DNA of 64,000 nt from Verrucomicrobiota bacterium (GCA_029573725.1 JAKQDQ010000178.1:186001-250000), one strand, 5' to 3'. Shown: positions 8,568 through 56,283, numbered from the stretch's first letter. Program-made: numbers and translations. Notes: generated by a model from the sequence alone, not told the origin.

Positions 8568-9896
8568 TTATTGAGGGTTGAGCACTTGATCCGCGGCGCG
8601 CCGGCCTTCCAGCAGGGCATCCTCCATGCCGCCATAATTCCAGCCGCCCCAGCGACCGCAGCTTTGCGCCTGATGTTCCGCGAGATAATCCAAAATCAAT
8701 TGCCGGCTGGCTTCGTAATGTTGATCAAACACGACGTAGGCGTGCGGAATCCTGCAAAGTTCCATGAAAATGATTTCGTCGCGCTCCGACAGCACCTGCG
8801 CCTTCCGCAGATCGGCGAGCACCCGCGCCCGGAGTTTTTCCGGTTCGGACAACCACTCGCGCGCGCCACCGGACATCTCCACGTAATAACTGCGGCACCC
8901 GTCCGGCGCCGCGCCCGCATGGACCGCCGAATACGAACCGGTGCGGTAGAAGATGAAGTCCGGTTCGGGGAAATAGATCCAGTGATGCTGGCTGGCCTGG
9001 GCGCCCGGCCCGCGCACACCCAGGTCATAGTAATGCACGGTGGTGGCGCGAAGTCTGGCGGCGGCGGCGCGCACCGCGGCGGGCGCGTCACTGATCATCT
9101 GAACAAATTGCGGCAGAGCCATGGTGTTGACCAGATGTTGGAACTGCACCTGCCCCCCATCCGCCAGCCTGGCGACGCGGCGCCCCAGCTCCACCTGCAC
9201 CACGGCGGTATTGAAGCGCGGCGCTTCTTGCAGGGCCTGCGCCAGCGTCCGCGGCAAGGTGCTGATGCCGCCTTCGCGGGGATAGACAAACCGGGCGTTG
9301 TAGCCCAGGGATTCCCGCGAGAGCCCCACCGCCCCCTTGATGACATCGTCAACTGAAGGCCGGGGGATGAACCGTTCGGCGTATTCCGGTCGCAATTCGC
9401 GCAAGTCCACCCCCAACAACTTTTCGTTGTAGGGAATCATGAAATGCTTCGCGATGCCCTCACCAAAGTAACGCTCGATCCATTCGCGGAAATTTTGCGG
9501 GGCCGTCGCCGGGTGGGACGCGCCAAAATCCTCCGGATGCCGGGCCTTCAGGAGTCCGATCAGGCACTCGTACACCACCTGGGCCGGCAGGCCGTACGTG
9601 TTGGCCTGGAAGGGATAGGGGGTAAACACCCCGTGCGAATGAATGACCGCCTTCCGCTCGTATTCCACCAGTTGGCCGGCCAGGAGTTGCTGCACCAGCC
9701 GCTGCATCACCGGAGTGCGCAGGTGCAGCCAATGTCCGGTGCCATCGCACAGAAAGCCATTGTGCCGGTTGCGGGTGCGCACCACGCCGCCCGGCTCGTT
9801 TTCCTTTTCCAACAACAGGTAATCCCGCTGCAGATGATACGCACAAGAAAGCCCGGTGAGGCCGGCGCCGATGACCAAAGTGGAAGTGTTCTGCAT
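8568..9896 (-). CDS. FAD-dependent oxidoreductase (UDP-galactopyranose-mutase/amine-oxidase-like)
   Basis: 442 residues. The N terminus has the dinucleotide-binding motif LVIGAGLTGLSCAYHL, then LLLEKENEPGGVVRT, a typical FAD-binding start of the NAD(P)-binding Rossmann/amine-oxidase family. The segment PYNEKLLGVDLREL and the N-terminal layout recall UDP-galactopyranose mutases and protoporphyrinogen-oxidase-like proteins found in glycan clusters. The exact substrate is unknown; a redox-neutral rearrangement of a nucleotide sugar is one possibility. It is the first gene of the leftward operon that continues with the GT4 gene. Confidence 0.75.
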   Translation of the reverse strand: MQNTSTLVIGAGLTGLSCAYHLQRDYLLLEKENEPGGVVRTRNRHNGFLCDGTGHWLHLRTPVMQRLVQQLLAGQLVEYERKAVIHSHGVFTPYPFQANTYGLPAQVVYECLIGLLKARHPEDFGASHPATAPQNFREWIERYFGEGIAKHFMIPYNEKLLGVDLRELRPEYAERFIPRPSVDDVIKGAVGLSRESLGYNARFVYPREGGISTLPRTLAQALQEAPRFNTAVVQVELGRRVARLADGGQVQFQHLVNTMALPQFVQMISDAPAAVRAAAARLRATTVHYYDLGVRGPGAQASQHHWIYFPEPDFIFYRTGSYSAVHAGAAPDGCRSYYVEMSGGAREWLSEPEKLRARVLADLRKAQVLSERDEIIFMELCRIPHAYVVFDQHYEASRQLILDYLAEHQAQSCGRWGGWNYGGMEDALLEGRRAADQVLNPQ

Positions 9897-10370
9897 CTAT
9901 AATTCGTTACTGTTTATTCCGCCGACCCGCAGGTCCGACCGCGTTGCGACGGGTCGCAGAACCTGCAACGAGGCGCTGCGTCCAAACCCGCCCGGCGGCC
10001 AATGCTCGCGCCACCGCATGCGGCAGGGACCTTGAAATCAACCGCGCCACCTCAACCCACAGGGGCGGGAATCCAGTGCGCCGCGCCGGGAGGCGGCGGA
10101 AATTGGACGTCTTTGCTTTGCGTCCCCCTGAACCCATTCGCGCCGGCCAGAGCGCCGCGCCGGACCGACGCCCAGCTTTTAATGAACCGGGTTGCGGGTT
10201 GCAAGCGCGGACTTGGCGGCCTCCCCGGCTTTCCCGCTCCACTCCGGCCCAAAAACGGCAGCGCGGAGGGTTCGGACCGGCACCGCACGCAAACCAGGGC
10301 GAGCAAGCCATTTGCCAAGAAGGCGATTGCACCCGTCTGAAATTTCCTCAGGCAGGGAACGGCGCACCCA
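9897..10370. other. 474-base gap, no gene seen
   Basis: It lies between the start of the FAD oxidoreductase gene and the stop of the methyltransferase gene. Frames of about 140 codons exist on both strands, but they are low-complexity, Arg/Pro-rich and lack start signals. No tRNA cloverleaf, strong hairpin or promoter stands out. It should hold the promoter of the FAD-oxidoreductase operon. Confidence 0.5.
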
Positions 10371-46633: not shown

Positions 46634-48136
46634 TCAGTCGCGAAACGCGCCTTCCCTCTTCTCCTTGCGGATGTCGCCCGCCGACTTGCCGCTGTCCCAC
46701 CACGACCAGTCGTCGGTGACTTTCAGTCCCGGTGTCGTCTTCAGGTAATCGGTCTGGGTCGGCTGGAAATCCTCATCCTCCACCACCGTGGGGGTAATGA
46801 AGATGGTCAAATTCTGCCGGTTAAGCTCCTTGCTGTCCTTGCGGAACAGCAGGCCCAATCCGGGAATGTCTCCCAACACCGGCACCTTGGTGCTGTTGTT
46901 CAGCTTCTCGTCCTGAATCAATCCACCCATGACAAGCGTATTGCCACTGGGGATCAGAACGGTGGTGTCCAACTTCCGGGTGTAGAAGGAATCCACGTCG
47001 TTGATCACGCCCGCAACCGTGCTTTGGTAGGATGGGCCCAGGCGCAGCACTCCCTGCTTTACGTTCAACTCGATGTAGTTGTTGGCCGCAATGCGCGGAG
47101 TGACGTCCAGATTCACCGTCAAGTTGGAGTAGGAGATTTGCGAGCCTCCCGTCGTGTTGGCCGTGCCAGCGGTGACATTGACGATGGGATACAGCAAGCC
47201 GACATCAATTGTCGCCTTCTGGTTGTCCAACGTCACCATGCGCGGTTCGGAAACCACTTTGGTATCGCCCGAGCTGTTCAAGAAGGACAGGGCGGCAGAA
47301 ACCCCGTCCGCATCCAAGAATGCGGCGGCCGGATTGAAAGTGAATCCACCCGCCAGGTCATTCATGAGGACGCCGGGATTATTCAAAGCCCCTGAGGGCA
47401 AGCCATTGTTTCCGAAGTGGAAATTTTGAGCCTTCAACGTGCCGCTCCAATCAATGCCTTTCTGGGTCTTCGGATTCAGGGTGGTCTCAAGGATCTTGGC
47501 CTCGATCAAGACCTGCTTGGTCTGTGTATCGAGCCGGGTAATCAACAGATCCACCGCTTCCTGTTCCTTTTCCGTCGCGGAGACCACCAATTGACTGGTG
47601 CGCGTGTCCGCGATCACCTTGCTGCGCTTGTCCACCAGCACGGTCTGCACCGAGGCGACAATGTTGCTGGGGGACGCGAATTTGAGCTGGACGATCTTGG
47701 TCACGAGCGGTTCGGCCGCTGCCGGGTCCTTGATGGTGACGCGCGAAATGCCGGTCTTGGTATCGCTGACCAGCTGCAACCCGTAGGTGGTAATCAGGGC
47801 GTTGAGGGCCTGTTCCGCCGTCAGGTTTTCCCAACGGATGGAAATGTTCGGTTGCGCCTTGATCTGGCCACGTTCATCCGGCTGGCCGTATCCCACTTGA
47901 GGGTCCAAGATGTAATTGATGCCCGCCTGACGCGCCAGATTGTCAATGGCCGTCGTCAGGGGCACATCCTGGAATTGGATGAGGGGGATCACTGCACTGC
48001 CGGTGGGGGTAACCTCCGGGGTCGAGGCAGCCGGGGGGGTATCCGGGGTCGCGGGGGCCGCCGGTTCGTTCTGGGCCAGAGCCACCGTGCAGGCGCTCAA
48101 CCCAATGAGGGTCATGAGGGCGAATTTCGCTTTCAT
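46634..48136 (-). CDS. pilQ: PilQ-like secretin
   Basis: 500 residues. A signal peptide (FALMTLIGLSACTVALAQ) is followed by an Ala/Pro linker, a small N-terminal STN/N0-like domain (VIPLIQFQDVPLTTAIDNLA), an N1-type domain (VTKIVQLKFASPSNIVASVQ) and the C-terminal secretin (TKVVSEPRMVTLDNQKATIDVG, VPVLGDIPGLGLLFRKDS, NLTIFITPTVV). It forms the outer-membrane gate for pili. It is shorter than many PilQ. It is separated from the pilMNOP genes by a terminator and has its own -24/-12-like element. Confidence 0.92.
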   Translation of the reverse strand: MKAKFALMTLIGLSACTVALAQNEPAAPATPDTPPAASTPEVTPTGSAVIPLIQFQDVPLTTAIDNLARQAGINYILDPQVGYGQPDERGQIKAQPNISIRWENLTAEQALNALITTYGLQLVSDTKTGISRVTIKDPAAAEPLVTKIVQLKFASPSNIVASVQTVLVDKRSKVIADTRTSQLVVSATEKEQEAVDLLITRLDTQTKQVLIEAKILETTLNPKTQKGIDWSGTLKAQNFHFGNNGLPSGALNNPGVLMNDLAGGFTFNPAAAFLDADGVSAALSFLNSSGDTKVVSEPRMVTLDNQKATIDVGLLYPIVNVTAGTANTTGGSQISYSNLTVNLDVTPRIAANNYIELNVKQGVLRLGPSYQSTVAGVINDVDSFYTRKLDTTVLIPSGNTLVMGGLIQDEKLNNSTKVPVLGDIPGLGLLFRKDSKELNRQNLTIFITPTVVEDEDFQPTQTDYLKTTPGLKVTDDWSWWDSGKSAGDIRKEKREGAFRD

Positions 48137-48212
48137 TTGTTTTATTTCGTTGTTCTCTCCGTTGAGCTTCTACGTTTGTTTGGTACATCCGCTCAACTCT
48201 CGGTCCGATTTC

Positions 48213-48228
48213 AGCAGCAGCGATGCCA
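48213..48228 (-). promoter_or_regulatory. Sigma-54-like -24/-12 element before pilQ (weaker)
   Basis: Read leftward: TGGCATCGCTGCTGCT, with GG and GC spaced by ten bases. The -24 half is consensus (TGGCA); the -12 half is CTGC in place of TTGC. It lies about 75 bases upstream of the ATG. Confidence 0.4.
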
Positions 48229-48284
48229 TGCCCGGTTTTCCGCGGAACCCCCGGAAAACCAGGGGAAAATCGGGGGCAAAAAAA

Positions 48285-48311
48285 AATCTTGTCCACCTAG
48301 TGGACAAGATT
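48285..48311 (-). terminator. Terminator after the pilMNOP genes
   Basis: AATCTTGTCCAC and GTGGACAAGATT form a perfect 12-bp stem with a three-base loop; leftward there follows a run of U (complement of the A-run at 48278-48286). It lies 21 bases past the pilP stop and ends that operon. Confidence 0.92.
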
Positions 48312-48332
48312 GTTGCCGGCGCTTGGGCGCGG

Positions 48333-48866
48333 TTATTTTTGCGGGGCGAGACGCAGTTCCCGCCGTTCCGCCCCGATCTGAATCAACGCCGTGCCCGCCG
48401 CCATGTTGATTTCGATGCAGGTGATTTTGGGGCGTCCCGTCTTGGTGATCACCTCGTTGACCTCTCCGGTGGTGAAGGTGGTCGTATTGATGATTGCCAG
48501 CGGCTGTTCGGGAGTCCCGGAAATGCCTTTCAACGTCAGATCCGCTTCAATCTTCGGCGCCTCCGGCGCGCTGACCACATTCACATGGTACACCCGGGTC
48601 GAGTTGGGAAAGAACGGATCGCGCCCCTCCGACGGCTGCTTGGGAATGACAAACGTCGAGAGCGCGGGCTCAGGAGAGGTTGTCCCGGTCCCGGCGGACT
48701 TTTCGGTCGGCGCCGTGGTGGAATGCAAGGTCCTGGCCTGGACTTGCAACACTTCATTGGTACCGGCCGCCGTGAGGCTTGCCCGGCCACCCTCAATGGC
48801 GATCCAGCCGAGCGCGGCCACGGCAGCAGTTTTAAGTGACAATAATTTCATCGTTCGGGGAGTCAT
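48333..48866 (-). CDS. pilP: PilP-like pilus assembly protein
   Basis: 177 residues. An N-terminal hydrophobic segment (TAAVAALGWIAI), a disordered Thr/Pro linker, then a compact beta domain (EADLTLKGISGTPEQPLAI, KITCIEINMAAGTALIQI). Similarity to PilP is by position and size more than by clear motif; it would link the PilN/O platform to the secretin. Its ATG overlaps the PilO stop (TAATG). Confidence 0.7.
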   Translation of the reverse strand: MTPRTMKLLSLKTAAVAALGWIAIEGGRASLTAAGTNEVLQVQARTLHSTTAPTEKSAGTGTTSPEPALSTFVIPKQPSEGRDPFFPNSTRVYHVNVVSAPEAPKIEADLTLKGISGTPEQPLAIINTTTFTTGEVNEVITKTGRPKITCIEINMAAGTALIQIGAERRELRLAPQK

Positions 48867-49465
48867 TAAATTTTTCCGGGTGCGGTCGTGGGTTTGACCA
48901 GGGTGATGATGTCCATCCGGAATGCGAGTTTGTCCCGCTCCGCGGCCGAGGCCGCCGGACTGAGATTCAGCGAGAGATTCGCGATGCGCATGAGCGGATG
49001 TTCGTTTTCAAAATCGGCAATGAATTGTCCCAAGTCGTGATAATACGCCGTCCCCGCCACGGACAAGGAAGCCTGCTGGTAGGGAAATCCGGGAAGCAGA
49101 TCCACGCTTCCCGGCTGGCTGATGGGATTGATTTGCGGAATGTCGATTCTGTAGTTGCGCTGAAATTTCCGTAAAAAACTCTGCACCCAGGAATACAGGT
49201 CGCCGGTGGCCATGCCGCTTTCCAGCACGGTCAGCCGGTCCGAAGTTTCCTTGAACGCGGTTTCCACCTGCTCGCGTCGCTTGATGGTTTTCTGCATCTC
49301 CTCCAGTTTGCCCAGCGCGGCGACCTGGTTCTGCTTCAAGGTATCCAGGTGGCGGTTGCCGCCCAGGATGAGGTAGTTGCCCAGGCCGGCCAGCACGGCA
49401 AGGATGATGACGATCGTGACGATCAGATGCTGTTTCTTTTCCTTGGAGAGTTTGTTGAATTTCAT
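48866..49465 (-). CDS. pilO: PilO-like pilus assembly protein
   Basis: 199 residues. One membrane helix (LIVTIVIILAVLAGLGNYLIL), a coiled coil (KQNQVAALGKLEEMQKTIKR), then a ferredoxin-like periplasmic domain (SLSVAGTAYYHDLGQFIADFE with HPLMRIANLSLN), which is typical of PilO. It dimerises with PilN in the inner membrane. ATG at 49465 overlaps the PilN stop (ATGA). Confidence 0.82.
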   Translation of the reverse strand: MKFNKLSKEKKQHLIVTIVIILAVLAGLGNYLILGGNRHLDTLKQNQVAALGKLEEMQKTIKRREQVETAFKETSDRLTVLESGMATGDLYSWVQSFLRKFQRNYRIDIPQINPISQPGSVDLLPGFPYQQASLSVAGTAYYHDLGQFIADFENEHPLMRIANLSLNLSPAASAAERDKLAFRMDIITLVKPTTAPGKI

Positions 49466-50136
49466 CGGGTCACCTCGGGGTAACGGCATTCCAGACTGAA
49501 AGTGACCACCGACTTGCCGGTCTCCGGCGAAATCTGTGGTGAGGAAGAATCCTTCCAGGCGACCGCATGGGCGCGGTCGAGCGACGTTTTGAAATAGGGA
49601 TACTGCGCAATGACGTCCTTCAACCGCAGCACCTGCTCACCCGGGTTGGCAGAACTGTCCGTGCCGTCCAGCAGAAGCATGGTTTTTTCGGTGACGGTCG
49701 CCGGCTTCCCCGGCACCTTCCGGTCGCCTTTCGTCTGCGGTTTGACTTCCGCGGTAAACCGGTAGGACTGGCTCACTTGCAGGCGGGTCAACTGCACGTC
49801 CTCCACCGTGGTATGCTGCAGGGCATCCATGAGATTGCCGTTCAGGAAGCGACTTGTGGAGAGCGCATGCAACGCGCCGAGCTTTCCGTTCATTTCGGCA
49901 ATCTGCTTTTGCATGTCCATTACCCGCACAAAATCGTTGGTGCATTGCTTCATCTGTGCGGTGACCGCGGCCAGCTCATTTTTGACAATGATGACCTTGA
50001 ATTGAATGACGCTGGCCCAGGCCAGCACGAGCAGGGTGAGCAGAATGCCAATGTAGGCCGTCCGCTTGACCGGATCCTTCCGGCGCAGGTCCTCAATGGC
50101 GTGGGCTTCAGCGAGCAGATTTAGACGAATGGGCAT
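49462..50136 (-). CDS. pilN: PilN-like pilus assembly protein
   Basis: 224 residues. It begins with MPIRLNLLAEAHA, a short cytoplasmic piece of the kind that binds PilM (INLLP-like motif), then a membrane helix (YIGILLTLLVLAWASVIQF), a coiled coil and a beta-rich periplasmic domain. It sits between pilM and pilO with short or overlapping spacers. Confidence 0.82.
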   Translation of the reverse strand: MPIRLNLLAEAHAIEDLRRKDPVKRTAYIGILLTLLVLAWASVIQFKVIIVKNELAAVTAQMKQCTNDFVRVMDMQKQIAEMNGKLGALHALSTSRFLNGNLMDALQHTTVEDVQLTRLQVSQSYRFTAEVKPQTKGDRKVPGKPATVTEKTMLLLDGTDSSANPGEQVLRLKDVIAQYPYFKTSLDRAHAVAWKDSSSPQISPETGKSVVTFSLECRYPEVTR

Positions 50137-50151
50137 GGTCGTAGAATCAGG

Positions 50152-51225
50152 TTAAAGGGCGGCAATCCCGGCGCCGATGGCCACGGCAAGTTGCGGAGCC
50201 ACGTGCTCCAATTCCGCGGCTTGCTGGGGCGGCAGATCCACCTTGAGAAAACCGGTTGGATTCCAGGTGTGCGTCTCGACGGCGAGTTCTTGCTGGAGCA
50301 GCTGCACCAGGAACTCCGAACGCGTGGTCCCGCCGGTCAAGTAGGCCGCCGCCACCGGGCAATCCTGCTGGTGTTCAAAAAAGTCGATGGACGCCCGCAA
50401 TTCGCGCCCCAAGGGCAGCAAAACGGATTCGAGCGCCGCCTGCACCTCCTGGGGCATCCCCATTTTGATGCCTTCCGCCTCCGCGTAGCTGATTTCCAAG
50501 GATTCGGCCACCGCTTGCGTCAAGCGGTCGCCGCCCAGATTCACCACGCGGCTGAGGATCAATTCCCCCTGCTGCAGGAGGCAGATGGAGGCGGAGCGAA
50601 AACCAATGTCAATCAACGCCACCACTTCATTCAAAAACGCGTCCGGCATGGCCATTTCAAAGGCATTCACCGGACCGACCAGTCCCGGTACAATGTGTTC
50701 GGCCACCAACCCGGCGCTTTTGGCGCCCGCGGTATATTCGTCAATCAGTTCCTGTTTTCCGCCCGCCGCCAACACCCGTTGCCGGGCCATCGGCGTGCCG
50801 GCCTTGGGCGTTTCATGGGTCGGTGAAGGCAGGAGGTGGCAGTCGAACACGTGGTTGGACAGCTCCTGCTGCAAGTAATTCCGGGAATTGTGCTTGAGCA
50901 CCATCCGCATGTCGTCCAATGGCATGCGCGGAACTTCCAGGTGACGGACAATGGCGTCATTCACCCCCGTGGTCAGGCTGACCTGCCTCGTCTTGGCGTC
51001 CAACGCCTGGCTGACCGCCTTGAGGTGCTCGCCCAACATGTCCGCCGACATCGCTTTGTCGAAAATGGGCGCATCCAACAGCGCAAAACGGGACAGATTA
51101 AATCCTTCGCCGCGGCGGTGCAAATGGACGGCCTTCGTGGTGCGGCTGCCAAGATCAATCGCCAGGATTTGTTCCGGCCGTTTCCGTCGCGGGCCCGTGA
51201 ACAAGGTGGACAAAACCGTGTGCAT
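50152..51225 (-). CDS. pilM: PilM-like actin-fold pilus ATPase-like protein
   Basis: 357 residues. Actin-like ATP-binding segments: ILAIDLGSRTTKAVHL (phosphate-1), VALIDIGFRSASICLLQQGE (phosphate-2) and AAYLTGGTTRSEFLVQLLQ (adenosine). It forms the cytoplasmic ring of the type IV pilus alignment complex with PilN. ATG at 51225 chosen from the usual N terminus. It is the first gene of pilMNOP and has a sigma-54-like element 88 bases upstream. Confidence 0.9.
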   Translation of the reverse strand: MHTVLSTLFTGPRRKRPEQILAIDLGSRTTKAVHLHRRGEGFNLSRFALLDAPIFDKAMSADMLGEHLKAVSQALDAKTRQVSLTTGVNDAIVRHLEVPRMPLDDMRMVLKHNSRNYLQQELSNHVFDCHLLPSPTHETPKAGTPMARQRVLAAGGKQELIDEYTAGAKSAGLVAEHIVPGLVGPVNAFEMAMPDAFLNEVVALIDIGFRSASICLLQQGELILSRVVNLGGDRLTQAVAESLEISYAEAEGIKMGMPQEVQAALESVLLPLGRELRASIDFFEHQQDCPVAAAYLTGGTTRSEFLVQLLQQELAVETHTWNPTGFLKVDLPPQQAAELEHVAPQLAVAIGAGIAAL

Positions 51226-51312
51226 TATTTTCTTTCTCTTTGATTCGCACTGCTGGTTGCCCGGACGCATCCGTGGGATCCGCCCGCAAACAACATTTCA
51301 CTGCGTTGGACT

Positions 51313-51328
51313 AGCAAGACATTTGCCA
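51313..51328 (-). promoter_or_regulatory. Sigma-54-like promoter of pilMNOP
   Basis: Read leftward: TGGCAAATGTCTTGCT, which fits TGGCA-N7-TTGC-A/T with the exact GG-N10-GC spacing. Predicted leader about 75 bases. Confidence 0.6.
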
Positions 51329-51492
51329 GTCTCCCGGGGCGATTACTAGTCGTGCCCCGGAGCGGGCGGTCTGGCGGGAAATCACCGCGAAAATGCCGGG
51401 AAACCCTTTCGCCTGGGAACGCCCGCGCCGGACATTGATGTGGGGAAACCGTGACACCGGGTGTCTTGAAATGGCCGGGCCGCGGGGGAAGG

Positions 51493-52176
51493 TCAGTTGT
51501 CGCCGCGAACCGCAACAATGTTCAGTTTCCCGTCGGGATCGCTGATCTGGAAACTACGCATCAAGACATACAGCGTGCTCTTGGCCGACGCGAATGTTTC
51601 CGGGCTGCAAACGGCGGAAAATTCCAAAATGCCCACTGGTGTCGGGACAAAACCAATCTGCACTTTGCGGGCGACGTCATCCACTTTGCAGGAAAATTCA
51701 AAGGCCGGACCGGAACTCTTCGCCGCACTGAACGTGCCCTCGTTGAGAAGAATCAAATCCGGCCACCGCGACGTGATCCAGGCGCGATACCCGGCGGACG
51801 ACCCCGGTGCGGAGGCCCCCTCCGCCGCCGTCAGAACCCGCACTGCCAACAAGGCCGTGAAATCCGCGTTGGCCAGGGTGATTTTTTCCGGATGCTTCAG
51901 CTCAACCCGGTATTGCTGCGGCAGCATGAACATCAGCCGCCGTTGGTTCACGGACATGAAAATACGGTGGATCTGCTCAAAACCGACGATCTCCCCGTCC
52001 TGCACCGTGGCGTGGAGCGCCAGCGGCCGAAGGATTTCCCCGGCGCTCAAATGGTCAGCGGCCGCAGGCGGGTCACTTTGCGCCAAAGCGGGTGTTCCAA
52101 GCGATCCGGTCAGGACCAGAATTCCCGCCCACGCCATCCAGCGGCGGATTCTGCGGGAAAATCGGGGTGATAACAT
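51493..52176 (-). CDS. Secreted hypothetical protein of the pilus cluster
   Basis: 227 residues. N-terminal twin basic region then signal peptide (WMAWAGILVLTGSLGTPALAQ). The mature part is beta-rich (IFMSVNQRRLMFMLPQQYRV, PTPVGILEFSAVCSPE). No family is recognised. It lies 31 bases after the pilX-like gene on the same strand and before the pilMNOP promoter, so it is probably the last gene of the minor-pilin operon. ATG at 52176 fits the signal peptide. Confidence 0.65.
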   Translation of the reverse strand: MLSPRFSRRIRRWMAWAGILVLTGSLGTPALAQSDPPAAADHLSAGEILRPLALHATVQDGEIVGFEQIHRIFMSVNQRRLMFMLPQQYRVELKHPEKITLANADFTALLAVRVLTAAEGASAPGSSAGYRAWITSRWPDLILLNEGTFSAAKSSGPAFEFSCKVDDVARKVQIGFVPTPVGILEFSAVCSPETFASAKSTLYVLMRSFQISDPDGKLNIVAVRGDN

Positions 52177-52207
52177 GCTTCGAAATGTGACCGGATCCAG
52201 CGACGAA

Positions 52208-54046
52208 TCAGGGAGTCGCATTGTAGGTGACCGTGTTCGGCGGCGGCGTGGCCCAGTTGAAGCGGATGGGAATCATGGCGCAGGGCATGCCCGGCGGTTG
52301 CTTGTTGGGATCAAGGAAATTCAGGTCGTAACTGAACTCCCGTTTGGGGGCGACGTAATACGACCCTGTGCCGGGCGTGATAAATTGGCCCGTGGCTTTC
52401 CGGCTGTTGAACAGGTTGATGATGGAGGTGTTCAACCAGACCTTGCGTGAGGTTGTCCAGTTTTCCAGCAAGCGCGGCAGATTATGCACCCCACCACTGA
52501 ATTGACTCGAGCCGCTTCCGGTGGACGGTACGATGCCGGTCAACAGGGCGGCATTTATCGTAATCGCCGAGGAGGGAGTGGGTCCGGTATCGCTGTCGGT
52601 GTAACTCGTCGTATCATTCCAGTTTCCAGAGAGAATGGTGAGCGCATCGGACATCAGGGCGGCGGGCACGGTGGCGGTGGTATTGGTGGTGGCCGTGCGG
52701 GTGATCCCATCCTTGCTCACGTTGTAATTATTCCACACGTAGAGCGGATTGGGCGTGGCCACACTCCAGCCGAGATTGTTATTCTTCGGCAATTCACTGC
52801 CATTCGCCAACCGCACTCCCGTTAATTTCCCGGACGTTACGGTTCGATTGTCCGCAACGTACAGAACGGTGGGATACAAACCCGCGACGGCGGGGAATTT
52901 GGACTGGACCGTTGTGTTGGTGGCAATCCATTGGCCGTATTTGGCCACGTCAATCTGGGTGGTCACAATTTCCTTGTTCTCCCGTTGATCCTTGAACCGG
53001 TTGGTAAGGCTCAGGAACGGCAGGTTGGTGGCCAGGGATTGCGGACTGGTGTTGGTATAGGTCAGGATGACCGGGCTGGGATCGGCGCCCGGGACCTGTT
53101 CGCTCACACTCTCCTGCAGCCGCAGCTGGACAACGGTGTTGCTGACGAGCAAGACCACCTGCGCCTTGTTGTACAGGCGCTCCTGTCCTTCTTGTGAGGT
53201 GGGCGACTCACCGGCCGGCGGCTGTTCGATCAGCGCGTAGGTGTTGGTCATGTTGATCGGCAGCGTAACGGATTGGGTGTTGGTGCGGTAATTGGGACTG
53301 CCATTAAATTCAACATTGCTGGCAGTGTTTCCGGTCCAGGGACCCTGCCCGTTGTTCCTGGGGTAACCGATGGCGCCCGCGGTGGTCACGGTGTTGTTGA
53401 AACGGACGGTTTGACCGGAGCCCAGGTAAATGTTGGCATTGGCATGCACCCGGCCATTGATGGTCATGGTCGCCGCGGTGCTGAATTCCAACAATCCATT
53501 ATAGAAAATCGCATAAGTGCTTAACGGCACGAGCGCCAGCAGGACATCCATTTGCGCAGTGCCCACCGTGTTGACGGCGCCGCTGGTATTGCGCGCATTG
53601 GCCACCAGCCGATACACGTTGGTGAAATACGGCGCACTGATGGTGCTTTTCCCGGCGTACTGGGAGGGCATGGCGCCCGAATAATTGCTCAACGCCTGGA
53701 TGTAAACCTGGTTGAGATTGCCCTGCGCGTCGGAAAATTCGAAATTGTTCCAAAACCCATTCTCGTTCGGAATATTGGTGCGATACAGGGAAAGGTTATT
53801 GGCGACACCACCGGGACCGAATGCCGTAAAGTCATACGCCATGCGCGCGAACACTTTTTCCAGCGCCGCCTCTGCAGCGTTGTTGTTCACCAGGTATTGG
53901 TTGCTGCGCGCGTTCAAATTGGCGACGGTGCTGGTGCGCTGCATGGTGGCGGCCAGAACAATCAAGCCCACGGCAATGAGACTCATCACCATGAGCAGGG
54001 CAAATCCGGTGTTACGACGCAGGAGGGGGATTAAACGTGTTTTCAT
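52208..54046 (-). CDS. PilX-like pilus assembly protein, very long
   Basis: 612 residues, about three times a usual PilX. The N terminus has an RxTGFALLMVMSLIAVGLIVL segment, like PilX/GspK leader plus hydrophobic helix but without the Glu at position 5. The rest is a large beta-rich domain of unknown fold (NGRVHANANIYLGSGQTVRF). GspK-like tip proteins also have large C-terminal domains and lack Glu5, so a tip role is plausible. It overlaps the pilW-like stop by ATGA. Confidence 0.75.
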   Translation of the reverse strand: MKTRLIPLLRRNTGFALLMVMSLIAVGLIVLAATMQRTSTVANLNARSNQYLVNNNAAEAALEKVFARMAYDFTAFGPGGVANNLSLYRTNIPNENGFWNNFEFSDAQGNLNQVYIQALSNYSGAMPSQYAGKSTISAPYFTNVYRLVANARNTSGAVNTVGTAQMDVLLALVPLSTYAIFYNGLLEFSTAATMTINGRVHANANIYLGSGQTVRFNNTVTTAGAIGYPRNNGQGPWTGNTASNVEFNGSPNYRTNTQSVTLPINMTNTYALIEQPPAGESPTSQEGQERLYNKAQVVLLVSNTVVQLRLQESVSEQVPGADPSPVILTYTNTSPQSLATNLPFLSLTNRFKDQRENKEIVTTQIDVAKYGQWIATNTTVQSKFPAVAGLYPTVLYVADNRTVTSGKLTGVRLANGSELPKNNNLGWSVATPNPLYVWNNYNVSKDGITRTATTNTTATVPAALMSDALTILSGNWNDTTSYTDSDTGPTPSSAITINAALLTGIVPSTGSGSSQFSGGVHNLPRLLENWTTSRKVWLNTSIINLFNSRKATGQFITPGTGSYYVAPKREFSYDLNFLDPNKQPPGMPCAMIPIRFNWATPPPNTVTYNATP

Positions 54047-54678
54047 GGTCCATCAGGAACGTGGGAGGCGGCTTTCAGTTCAGTCTTGTAATAATCGTAT
54101 TTCAACCCCGGTCCGACCGAGGTTAACGGATATTGATACTGGGCGTATTCCAACACCGTGCTGATGACCCCTTTGTGTGTCAGATCGGTGACAGTGTCGC
54201 CCCGGTAATCCTCCACCCGAAACGTCATGCTGTTGGGCGTGATATTGGTCAGGTGCGAGGCCAGCAGCGTCGGGGTGCCGGCATCCACCTGGCGCCAGAG
54301 CTGGTTGTTGGCCGTGTCAAAGTAGTAATAGATCGAATTGGAAATGGCCGCGGACGAATAGTTGAAAAAGCTGAGTTTGAGCGCCGTGCCCTGCTGGGCC
54401 GTTCCATTGGCTATCGGCGTGAAGGTCGAGCCGGACAGGGTGCCGACCCGCACGGTTTTGGCGGTTCGGATGTCCTGCAGCATTTTGTTCAAACCGACAC
54501 GGGACTGGTCGCTGGCCCCCAGTTTGCTCAGCACCAATTGGTCGTAGCGCTGTCCAAAGAGATGAATCGCGATCAGGCCGATGGTGACCATGCTGAAGAT
54601 GCTCATGCTGATCATCAGCTCCGCCAGCGTAAACCCGCGGCGGAGGCAAACAGTGCGGCTGGAGGACAGGATTTTCAT
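54043..54678 (-). CDS. PilW-like minor pilin
   Basis: 211 residues with the type IV prepilin leader RRGFTLAELMISMSIFSMVT: cleavage after Gly, Phe at +1 and Glu at +5. The C-terminal part is a beta-rich head (SIYYYFDTANNQLWRQVD). Located between the PilV- and PilX-like genes with overlapping starts and stops, as in minor-pilin operons. Confidence 0.85.
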   Translation of the reverse strand: MKILSSSRTVCLRRGFTLAELMISMSIFSMVTIGLIAIHLFGQRYDQLVLSKLGASDQSRVGLNKMLQDIRTAKTVRVGTLSGSTFTPIANGTAQQGTALKLSFFNYSSAAISNSIYYYFDTANNQLWRQVDAGTPTLLASHLTNITPNSMTFRVEDYRGDTVTDLTHKGVISTVLEYAQYQYPLTSVGPGLKYDYYKTELKAASHVPDGP

Positions 54679-55238
54679 CAGAGATTAGGATCACGATTGT
54701 CCGGCGCGAAGTACGTGGCGACCGTGTTGGTGAAATATCTTACGGCGTTGCCCTTGGCAAAAGGCCAGACGGTGTCCACCCGCATGAACTGCACCCGCAC
54801 CTTGTTCGGCAGGATGTCGTACCGCCTGATCGTCACGTAATTGGTGGCCATCACGAAATTGTTTCCGGAATACGGCAGGTCCAGAATATTGGTGGTGTAA
54901 CCCCTCACCATTGGCGGAATGCCGCCCGCTCCTCCCGTGGCGGTGAAATTCATCAGCGGCAGGTTGGTGATTTCATTCCGCTCGGCACCGGACGACGCAT
55001 CCCATACGGCCGAGCGCGCGCGCTCGATTTCCCGCAATCCCACCGCCTGCGCAGCCAGCGAATAGCCCGACCATTCGGCACGGCGTGCGCCCTGAATATA
55101 GGCCGCCAGAATGCCCCCAAACACCAGTCCGGTGATGAAGATGGCGGTGACCACTTCCACCAGGGTGAAACCTCCTGCGCGCGGTGGCGTCGCTGGATAG
55201 ATGCGGTGGGAAGTCTTCTGATTGCGGTATAACCTCAT
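54678..55238 (-). CDS. PilV-like minor pilin
   Basis: 186 residues. Prepilin leader GGFTLVEVVTAIFITGLVFG with Glu at +5. The head is short and contains SGYSLAAQAVGLREIERARS. First gene of the minor-pilin operon; its stop overlaps the start of the PilW-like gene. A sigma-54-like element lies 28 bases upstream of the start. Confidence 0.85.
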   Translation of the reverse strand: MRLYRNQKTSHRIYPATPPRAGGFTLVEVVTAIFITGLVFGGILAAYIQGARRAEWSGYSLAAQAVGLREIERARSAVWDASSGAERNEITNLPLMNFTATGGAGGIPPMVRGYTTNILDLPYSGNNFVMATNYVTIRRYDILPNKVRVQFMRVDTVWPFAKGNAVRYFTNTVATYFAPDNRDPNL

Positions 55239-55265
55239 TGTACGCCTCTAAAGCTTCTGGAATTT

Positions 55266-55281
55266 AGCAAGCGCAATGCCA
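55266..55281 (-). promoter_or_regulatory. Sigma-54-like promoter of the minor-pilin operon
   Basis: Read leftward: TGGCATTGCGCTTGCT, fitting TGGCA-N7-TTGC-A/T with exact GG-N10-GC spacing and a T before the GG half. Predicted leader about 17 bases, with GAGG in front of the ATG. Confidence 0.6.
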
Positions 55282-55356
55282 ACCCGCCGCCCGCGCAATT
55301 CCAGTGGCCCGCAGACATAAAGAGGGGTGGCTGTCTCAAGGTTGGAAAGCGGCGCC

Positions 55357-56283
55357 TCATTGTTTGCGTGCCGATGGTTTTCCGGTCGCCGGGCTTCCGG
55401 CCGGCAACTGCCGCGCCAGTTGGCGGGCCCGCTGGCCGACGATTTCCAGCAGACCCTGCAGGACGGGGGTCTGGCGCCCCTGCCAGAGCACGCCAAACGT
55501 CACCGGCTTGAATCCACGCAGGGGCAATACCCGCACATCCGGATAAAAATCCGCCTCCGGCAGTTGCACCGCCACCCCGATGCCGTAGCCGCGCGCCACA
55601 TATTCCTGGACCAGTTCAATGCTGCTGACCTCAATGCCCACGGGCCAGGCCACCCTCCTTCGGGCCAACCCCTCCTGCAGCGCCGATTGAATCAGCTCAT
55701 TGCTGGGCACCGTGATCAGGGAATCGGTAATTCGGTCCTGCGCCCACAACGCTTCCGCCGAGGCCAGAGGACTCGCTTTCGGCACCAATAAAGCCAGGGA
55801 AAGATCGAACATCGGCAGCGCGCGGATTCCGCCGGGCGGTTTGCCTCCCAGCAACCCGATCGCCAGATCGATCTCCTGATTTTGCAACCAGGCCAGGACC
55901 TCCGGATGGTAGCCCTCACGTAAAGACACCTTGAGTTTGGGAAAGGACCGTCGCAATTCCTGCAACATCTCCGGCAGAAAGCGGCGCAGGACCGTTTCCG
56001 AAGCGGCAATCCGCAAATGTTGGGAAATGCCGCCGCGCAACTTGTCGGCCATGAAACTCAGGTTGGTGAAGAAGGGTTTGCTGAAATCATACAACTCCTG
56101 GCCCGCCGCCGTCAGCGCAAACGGACGCCGGTGAAACAGGGTCACACCCAAAAATTCCTCGAGCTGGAGGATCTGCCCGCTCACGGCCGGCTGTTGGATG
56201 CCGTAGGGCATGTTCCGCACGGCGGAACTGATGCCGCCGTGCTTCGCCACGTAGTAGAATAATTCCAGATGATGGACGTTCAT
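55357..56283 (-). CDS. LysR-family transcriptional regulator
   Basis: 308 residues. N-terminal winged HTH: HHLELFYYVAKHGGISSAVR then QPAVSGQILQLEEFLGVTLF with the SQ.QL.LE-type recognition helix. The C-terminal domain has two alpha/beta lobes for effector binding (LRIAASETVLRRFLPEML, EIDLAIGLLGG). The effector is unknown. It faces the minor-pilin genes but has its own start; control of the adjacent genes is only a guess. Confidence 0.9.
   Translation of the reverse strand: MNVHHLELFYYVAKHGGISSAVRNMPYGIQQPAVSGQILQLEEFLGVTLFHRRPFALTAAGQELYDFSKPFFTNLSFMADKLRGGISQHLRIAASETVLRRFLPEMLQELRRSFPKLKVSLREGYHPEVLAWLQNQEIDLAIGLLGGKPPGGIRALPMFDLSLALLVPKASPLASAEALWAQDRITDSLITVPSNELIQSALQEGLARRRVAWPVGIEVSSIELVQEYVARGYGIGVAVQLPEADFYPDVRVLPLRGFKPVTFGVLWQGRQTPVLQGLLEIVGQRARQLARQLPAGSPATGKPSARKQ

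Follow-up and report, generated by a model that had tools for sequence, protein, structure and literature searches.

Sigma-54-like promoters and candidate activator sites of type IV pilus units in a Verrucomicrobiota genome

A 64,000-nucleotide stretch of a Verrucomicrobiota bacterium genome (GCA_029573725.1 JAKQDQ010000178.1:186001-250000; hereafter the window) carries three type IV pilus transcription units, namely those of the minor pilins, pilMNOP and the secretin gene pilQ, each preceded by a sigma-54-like element. These three elements are very probably the sigma-54 (RpoN) promoters of the units, working with an upstream activator dyad and one common activator. The observations on which this is based are the sequence, strand and spacing of the elements, the rpoN and activator genes of the genome, the conservation of the promoters in relatives, and the conservation and phasing of the dyad before pilQ.

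Promoter elements before the pilus units

All three -24/-12 elements lie on the minus strand and are oriented toward their genes. Those of pilM (TGGCAAATGTCTTGCT, 51313-51328) and of the minor-pilin unit (TGGCATTGCGCTTGCT, 55266-55281) are exact matches to TGGCA-N6-TTGCT, with predicted transcription starts at about 51302 and 55255 respectively, and that of pilQ (TGGCATCGCTGCTGCT, 48213-48228; predicted start at about 48202) has one mismatch. The elements show GG-N10-GC within the pattern TGGCACG-N4-TTGCW. Coordinates, strand and GG-N10-GC spacing are as the first-pass annotation of this DNA had given them, as seen in the minus-strand sequence. Its pattern TGGCA-N7-TTGCT was correctly placed but contained a miscounted gap, N6 being the one which gives the right sigma-54 spacing, and it specifies ten bases rather than the nine claimed.

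The same annotation considered such a match rare by chance in 64 kb. For exact matches to TGGCA-N6-TTGCT this holds, as about 0.12 are expected on both strands (equal base frequencies) and three were found (P ~3e-4), but it is not accompanied by genome-wide enrichment. With up to two mismatches the window contains 68 matches against 70.8 expected, and over the 4.28-Mb genome TGGCA-N6-TTGCW occurs 13 times, as does its reversed control. Sequence rarity is by itself weak evidence, because the genome-wide count equals this control and the majority of the remaining genomic matches inspected are intragenic; position plus conservation is strong evidence. The third exact match of the window, at 10302-10317 on the minus strand, is remote from any pilus gene; it follows directly on a ubiE-like gene and precedes a FAD-dependent oxidoreductase-like gene (8568-9896) by about 400 nt.

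In a first set of 58 loci retrieved via PilM, the pattern TGGC-N8-TGCW was sought up to 250 nt upstream of pilM, with the opposite strand and the reversed sequence as controls. It is present before pilM in 44 of the 58 loci, with none in either control. Before pilQ it occurs close to the start in 12/49 and over the whole pilP-pilQ gap in 19/44, against 2 in controls, and before pilV, the first minor pilin gene, in 8 of 10, against 1. Boundaries internal to the units are almost devoid of it (pilN 1/60, pilO 0/57, pilP 0/51, pilW 0/9, pilX 0/9). A second set consists of 57 genomes, these being the window's own, whose locus is counted for each unit, and others of the same genus, family and order; the pattern was found here at 17/30 pilM, 13/29 pilQ and 16/30 pilV regions, with all reverse-strand and reversed controls at 0. 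The two sets overlap and the relatives share descent, so these counts cannot be taken as independent, though the same common descent applies to the controls. In the closest genomes (same genus or family) approximately 81-96 nt separate the pilQ element from the start codon. At all three units, dozens of relatives have the element conserved on the right strand and in promoter position. It is extremely improbable that they are short chance matches noticed for lying before pilus genes: the lack of genome-wide enrichment and the window count at two mismatches would suit such an explanation, but it does not account for an element that recurs on one strand only, at these three boundaries, in dozens of relatives while controls stay near zero.

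A matrix refined on the pilM upstream regions of the relatives yields TGGC(A/G)CG-N4-(T/C)TGCT, the classic sigma-54 consensus. The plain-pattern counts given above are the fair test, because this matrix was fitted to those same sequences. The consensus also bears on the idea that the conserved element is bound by a protein other than sigma-54, since it is asymmetric and strand-specific, unlike a dyad operator, and activator-like dyads lie upstream of it at a fixed helical phase. Binding by sigma-54 is predicted from sequence, and in one element-bearing genome (L038 in G009) rpoN was not found, the assemblies being incomplete; nevertheless, another binding protein appears very unlikely.

No sigma-70-like site was found on the minus strand before the three units with the E. 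coli consensus, which may not fit this group. It could be proposed from this possible misfit, and from the relatives lacking matches, that the sigma-54 sites, although real, are minor and that transcription depends mostly on a housekeeping promoter. However, conservation of both element and dyad implies selection, which along with the negative scan leaves this an unlikely explanation. The first-pass annotation assigned an element to all three type IV pilus units; this stands for the window, but the pilB/pilT/pilB/pilC genes on contig C57 have no convincing upstream site.

Candidate activator sites

Upstream of pilQ lies a candidate activator dyad, TTGTC-N9-GACAA (48289-48307, minus strand), which forms the core of a terminator-like hairpin (48285-48311) detected by a terminator scan in the window, with a 12-bp stem followed in this genome by a T-run. 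The core TGTC-N9-GACA was identified in 19 of 31 pilQ upstream regions, any other spacing being found at most once, and with one mismatch allowed the dyad is present in 22 of the 31, compared with 1.8 in shuffles. The distance from its centre to the -24 box downstream is 69.5-72.5 bp, except for one locus at 60.5 bp and one at 81.5 bp, about one helical turn off. NifA sites are similar to this dyad.

The first-pass annotation spoke of perfect terminators between pilP and pilQ, and the stem and T-run of the window agree with this description. However, the T-run is not conserved, the 14 bases after the dyad having 9 T in the window and 0-5 at 20 other dyad loci, and the core of the hairpin behaves as an activator site. 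Because the T-run is peculiar to this genome while the dyad and its distance to the -24 box are conserved, the conserved core looks like a site for an enhancer-binding protein. That the hairpin is mainly a transcription terminator, as its appearance in the window would suggest, is rather unlikely, seeing that a matrix derived from the dyad also finds sites before pilV, a gene preceded by lysR and not by pilP. In this genome the hairpin may serve as both terminator and activator site.

This matrix was trained on pilQ dyads only and then applied to the other two regions. With a threshold of 6 bits, 11 of 23 pilV regions (0.7 expected) and 13 of 56 pilM regions (0.95 expected) have a site, and with 10 bits 3 of 23 pilV regions (0.15 expected). 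Before the minor-pilin unit of the window it identifies a candidate activator dyad at 55330-55350 on the minus strand (GCTTTCCAACCTTGAGACAGC) with 11.5 bits. Before the window's pilM there is a weak candidate site, GACACC-C-GGTGTC (51453-51465, minus strand), with no fit to the matrix. In the pilM regions of relatives the half-sites also occur as GACA-N4-TGTC and GACA-N17-GACA, arrangements which would fit dyads repeated every 21 bp. Judged by sequence, candidate upstream activator sites are present for pilQ and pilV in both the window and its relatives, and for pilM in the relatives only. Over the whole genome there are five occurrences of TTGTC-N9-GACAA and 11 of its reversed control (per strand); only the pilQ copy lies at a relevant promoter.

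Activator genes, gene cluster and type II secretion operon

The genome possesses a single rpoN gene, whose product has the RpoN box ARRTVAKYR, and nine clear enhancer-binding proteins with a full sigma-54 activation domain, eight of which have GAFTGA or GAYTGA and one GAFTSA. The presence of both kinds of gene, together with the conservation at all three units, supports the sigma-54 interpretation of the first-pass annotation, which had itself pointed to these genes. Among the relatives rpoN was detected in 46 of 49 genomes; two of the three without an rpoN match also lack a good site, but these are too few, and their assemblies too incomplete, to be of use.

In several relatives (L044, L052, L054, L068, L077; genomes G076, G081, G093) a response-regulator activator adjoins pilQ. 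It belongs to a family (including L238-L267) whose members are 65-87% identical and present in most relatives. This family is not clearly the activator of the pilus units, because genome G055 keeps the promoters and the dyad without a close copy of it, one being absent also from the assembly of the window (G000). Two further candidates were set aside. The activator encoded on contig C101 shares only 43-46% identity with the pilQ-adjacent family. In the enhancer-binding protein on contig C34 (L129:9319-10677), whose gene lies close to a pilB-like one, GAFTSA replaces GAFTGA, and this protein may fail to activate sigma-54. No self-regulation of the candidate activators via the dyad was seen.

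A number of observations weigh against sigma-54 promoters under one common activator. Besides the genome-wide count, which is no higher than its control, three genomes of the same genus have only a degenerate pilM element (TGGCATGGAATCGGCT), with GG-N10-GC retained, and the share of relatives without a match at a given unit ranges from a quarter to more than half. The relatives, as mentioned, are not independent samples and are drawn from overlapping sets. Within 220 bp of the window's pilM there is no dyad fitting the pilQ-trained matrix. The pilus part of the window lacks an activator gene, none of the enhancer-binding proteins of the genome being encoded within the window at all, and the pilQ-adjacent activator family lacks a close copy in this assembly.

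The genes of the cluster are all on the minus strand. A LysR-family gene (55357-56283), conserved at this place in about half of the relatives, lies upstream of it. The minor-pilin unit starts with pilV-like (54678-55238) and pilW-like (54043-54678) genes for N-methylated minor pilins, both with PF07963, which are followed by a gene for a large pilX-like protein with a prepilin-like start (52208-54046; synteny and homologs in relatives) and a gene of no assigned function (51493-52221), with homologs between minor pilins and pilM in some relatives. Next are pilM (50152-51225; PF11104, E-value 8.5e-27) and the pilN-like (49462-50136), pilO-like (48866-49468) and pilP-like (48333-48866) genes, assigned by position and homologs in relatives, of which the pilO-like gene has a weak PF10741 match and the other two no Pfam match. 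The secretin gene pilQ (46634-48136; PF00263, E-value 1.8e-45) is last. The order lysR, minor pilins, unassigned gene, pilM-N-O-P, pilQ is found again, complete or in part, in numerous Verrucomicrobia designated as Limisphaerales, Pedosphaera or subdivision 3, so that the window very likely comes from this group. In the 3′ end of lysR, TGGCGCGGCAGTTGCC (55403-55418, minus strand) matches the pilM element of the relatives except for the last base, and is possibly a second or relic site.

The pilQ leader contains an inverted repeat, GTTGAGC...GCTCAAC (48161-48197, minus strand; arms 48191-48197 and 48161-48167), which begins about 6 nt after the predicted transcription start and is conserved in genomes of the same genus and family. 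In one relative both outer pairs are changed to G-U, which fits an RNA stem; an mRNA stem close to the 5′ end is only suggested by this. Leaders in general are no richer in hairpins than shuffled sequences, with only the pilQ leader repeat of close relatives standing out, and an Rfam search gave no match.

The type II secretion operon, which lies elsewhere in the genome (contig C71, gspE at 294717), has a consensus sigma-54 element, TGGCACGAACTTTGCA (L134:10046-10061, equal to contig C71:294045-294060), 79 nt upstream of its first gene. Of 30 loci, counting that of the window's genome, 15 retain this element, against 2 and 3 for the controls; GCGCA-N5-TGCGC dyads lie upstream in 13 of the 15, several loci having two in tandem. 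This dyad differs from the TGTC-N9-GACA of the pilus units, which suggests that the operon may be a parallel sigma-54 unit under a different activator.

Mechanism, known systems and significance

At the pilus units, RNA polymerase with sigma-54 would form a closed complex on the -24/-12 element; an ATP-driven enhancer-binding protein would open this complex, and transcription would depend on RpoN. The activator would most likely bind the TGTC-N9-GACA dyad some 50-75 bp upstream of the -24 box. This dyad shows conservation before pilQ, has support at the window's minor-pilin unit and occurs in the pilM regions of relatives. One activator would in this way switch on the alignment complex, the secretin and the minor pilins together. 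Because the same conserved promoter type is found at all three units and the same likely activator site at at least two, a signal-responsive activator probably induces pilus building as a single whole.

Sigma-54 and PilR control pilA in Pseudomonas and Geobacter (PMC6058289; Geobacter pilA PMC2725144), the latter having many predicted PilR/sigma-54 sites before type IV pilus genes (PMC6058289). The RpoN/PilR systems of Pseudomonas aeruginosa and Geobacter sulfurreducens likewise combine a sigma-54 promoter with an NtrC-family activator for type IV pili. Hallmarks of PilR sites are TGT-N11-AGA plus GTCT elements (PMC6058289); the dyad described here, TGT-N11-ACA, has the same spacing with ACA for AGA, a resemblance of the sites only. 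In contrast to those systems, which drive pilA, the promoters here would drive pilM-P, pilQ and the minor pilins, in the phylum Verrucomicrobiota and with no pilS-pilR pair beside the pilus genes. The control proposed here would resemble that of PilR/RpoN in the way it works, without necessarily belonging to the PilS/PilR systems. In commensal Neisseria RpoN and Npa control pilE (PMC6528607), again a case of sigma-54 and a response-regulator activator for a pilus gene, but concerning a single pilin gene, with no common dyad or multi-unit arrangement described in the available part of that paper. A 2025 cross-phylum survey of sigma-54 predicts promoters in Verrucomicrobiota, with motility genes in Opitutia (PMC12316311); the pilM and pilQ promoters and activator dyads of this group are not among the predictions described in its available part.

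Control of this kind is known; here it is documented in Verrucomicrobia, which are abundant, mostly uncultured and little studied with regard to transcriptional control. For Limisphaerales/Pedosphaera it may be proposed, with about equal likelihood of being right or wrong, that sigma-54 is a dedicated switch of secretin machines, with a TGTC-N9-GACA activator for all pilus assembly units and a second, GCGCA-N5-TGCGC activator for type II secretion, forming a two-channel circuit throughout the order. A conserved architecture of promoter and activator site for pili, together with its counterpart for type II secretion, would offer a first circuit through which to approach regulation in these bacteria, and matrices with which to search for the other members of the regulon. 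It would also broaden the sigma-54 control of pili, in a distant phylum, from the genes of pilins to those of the assembly machinery.

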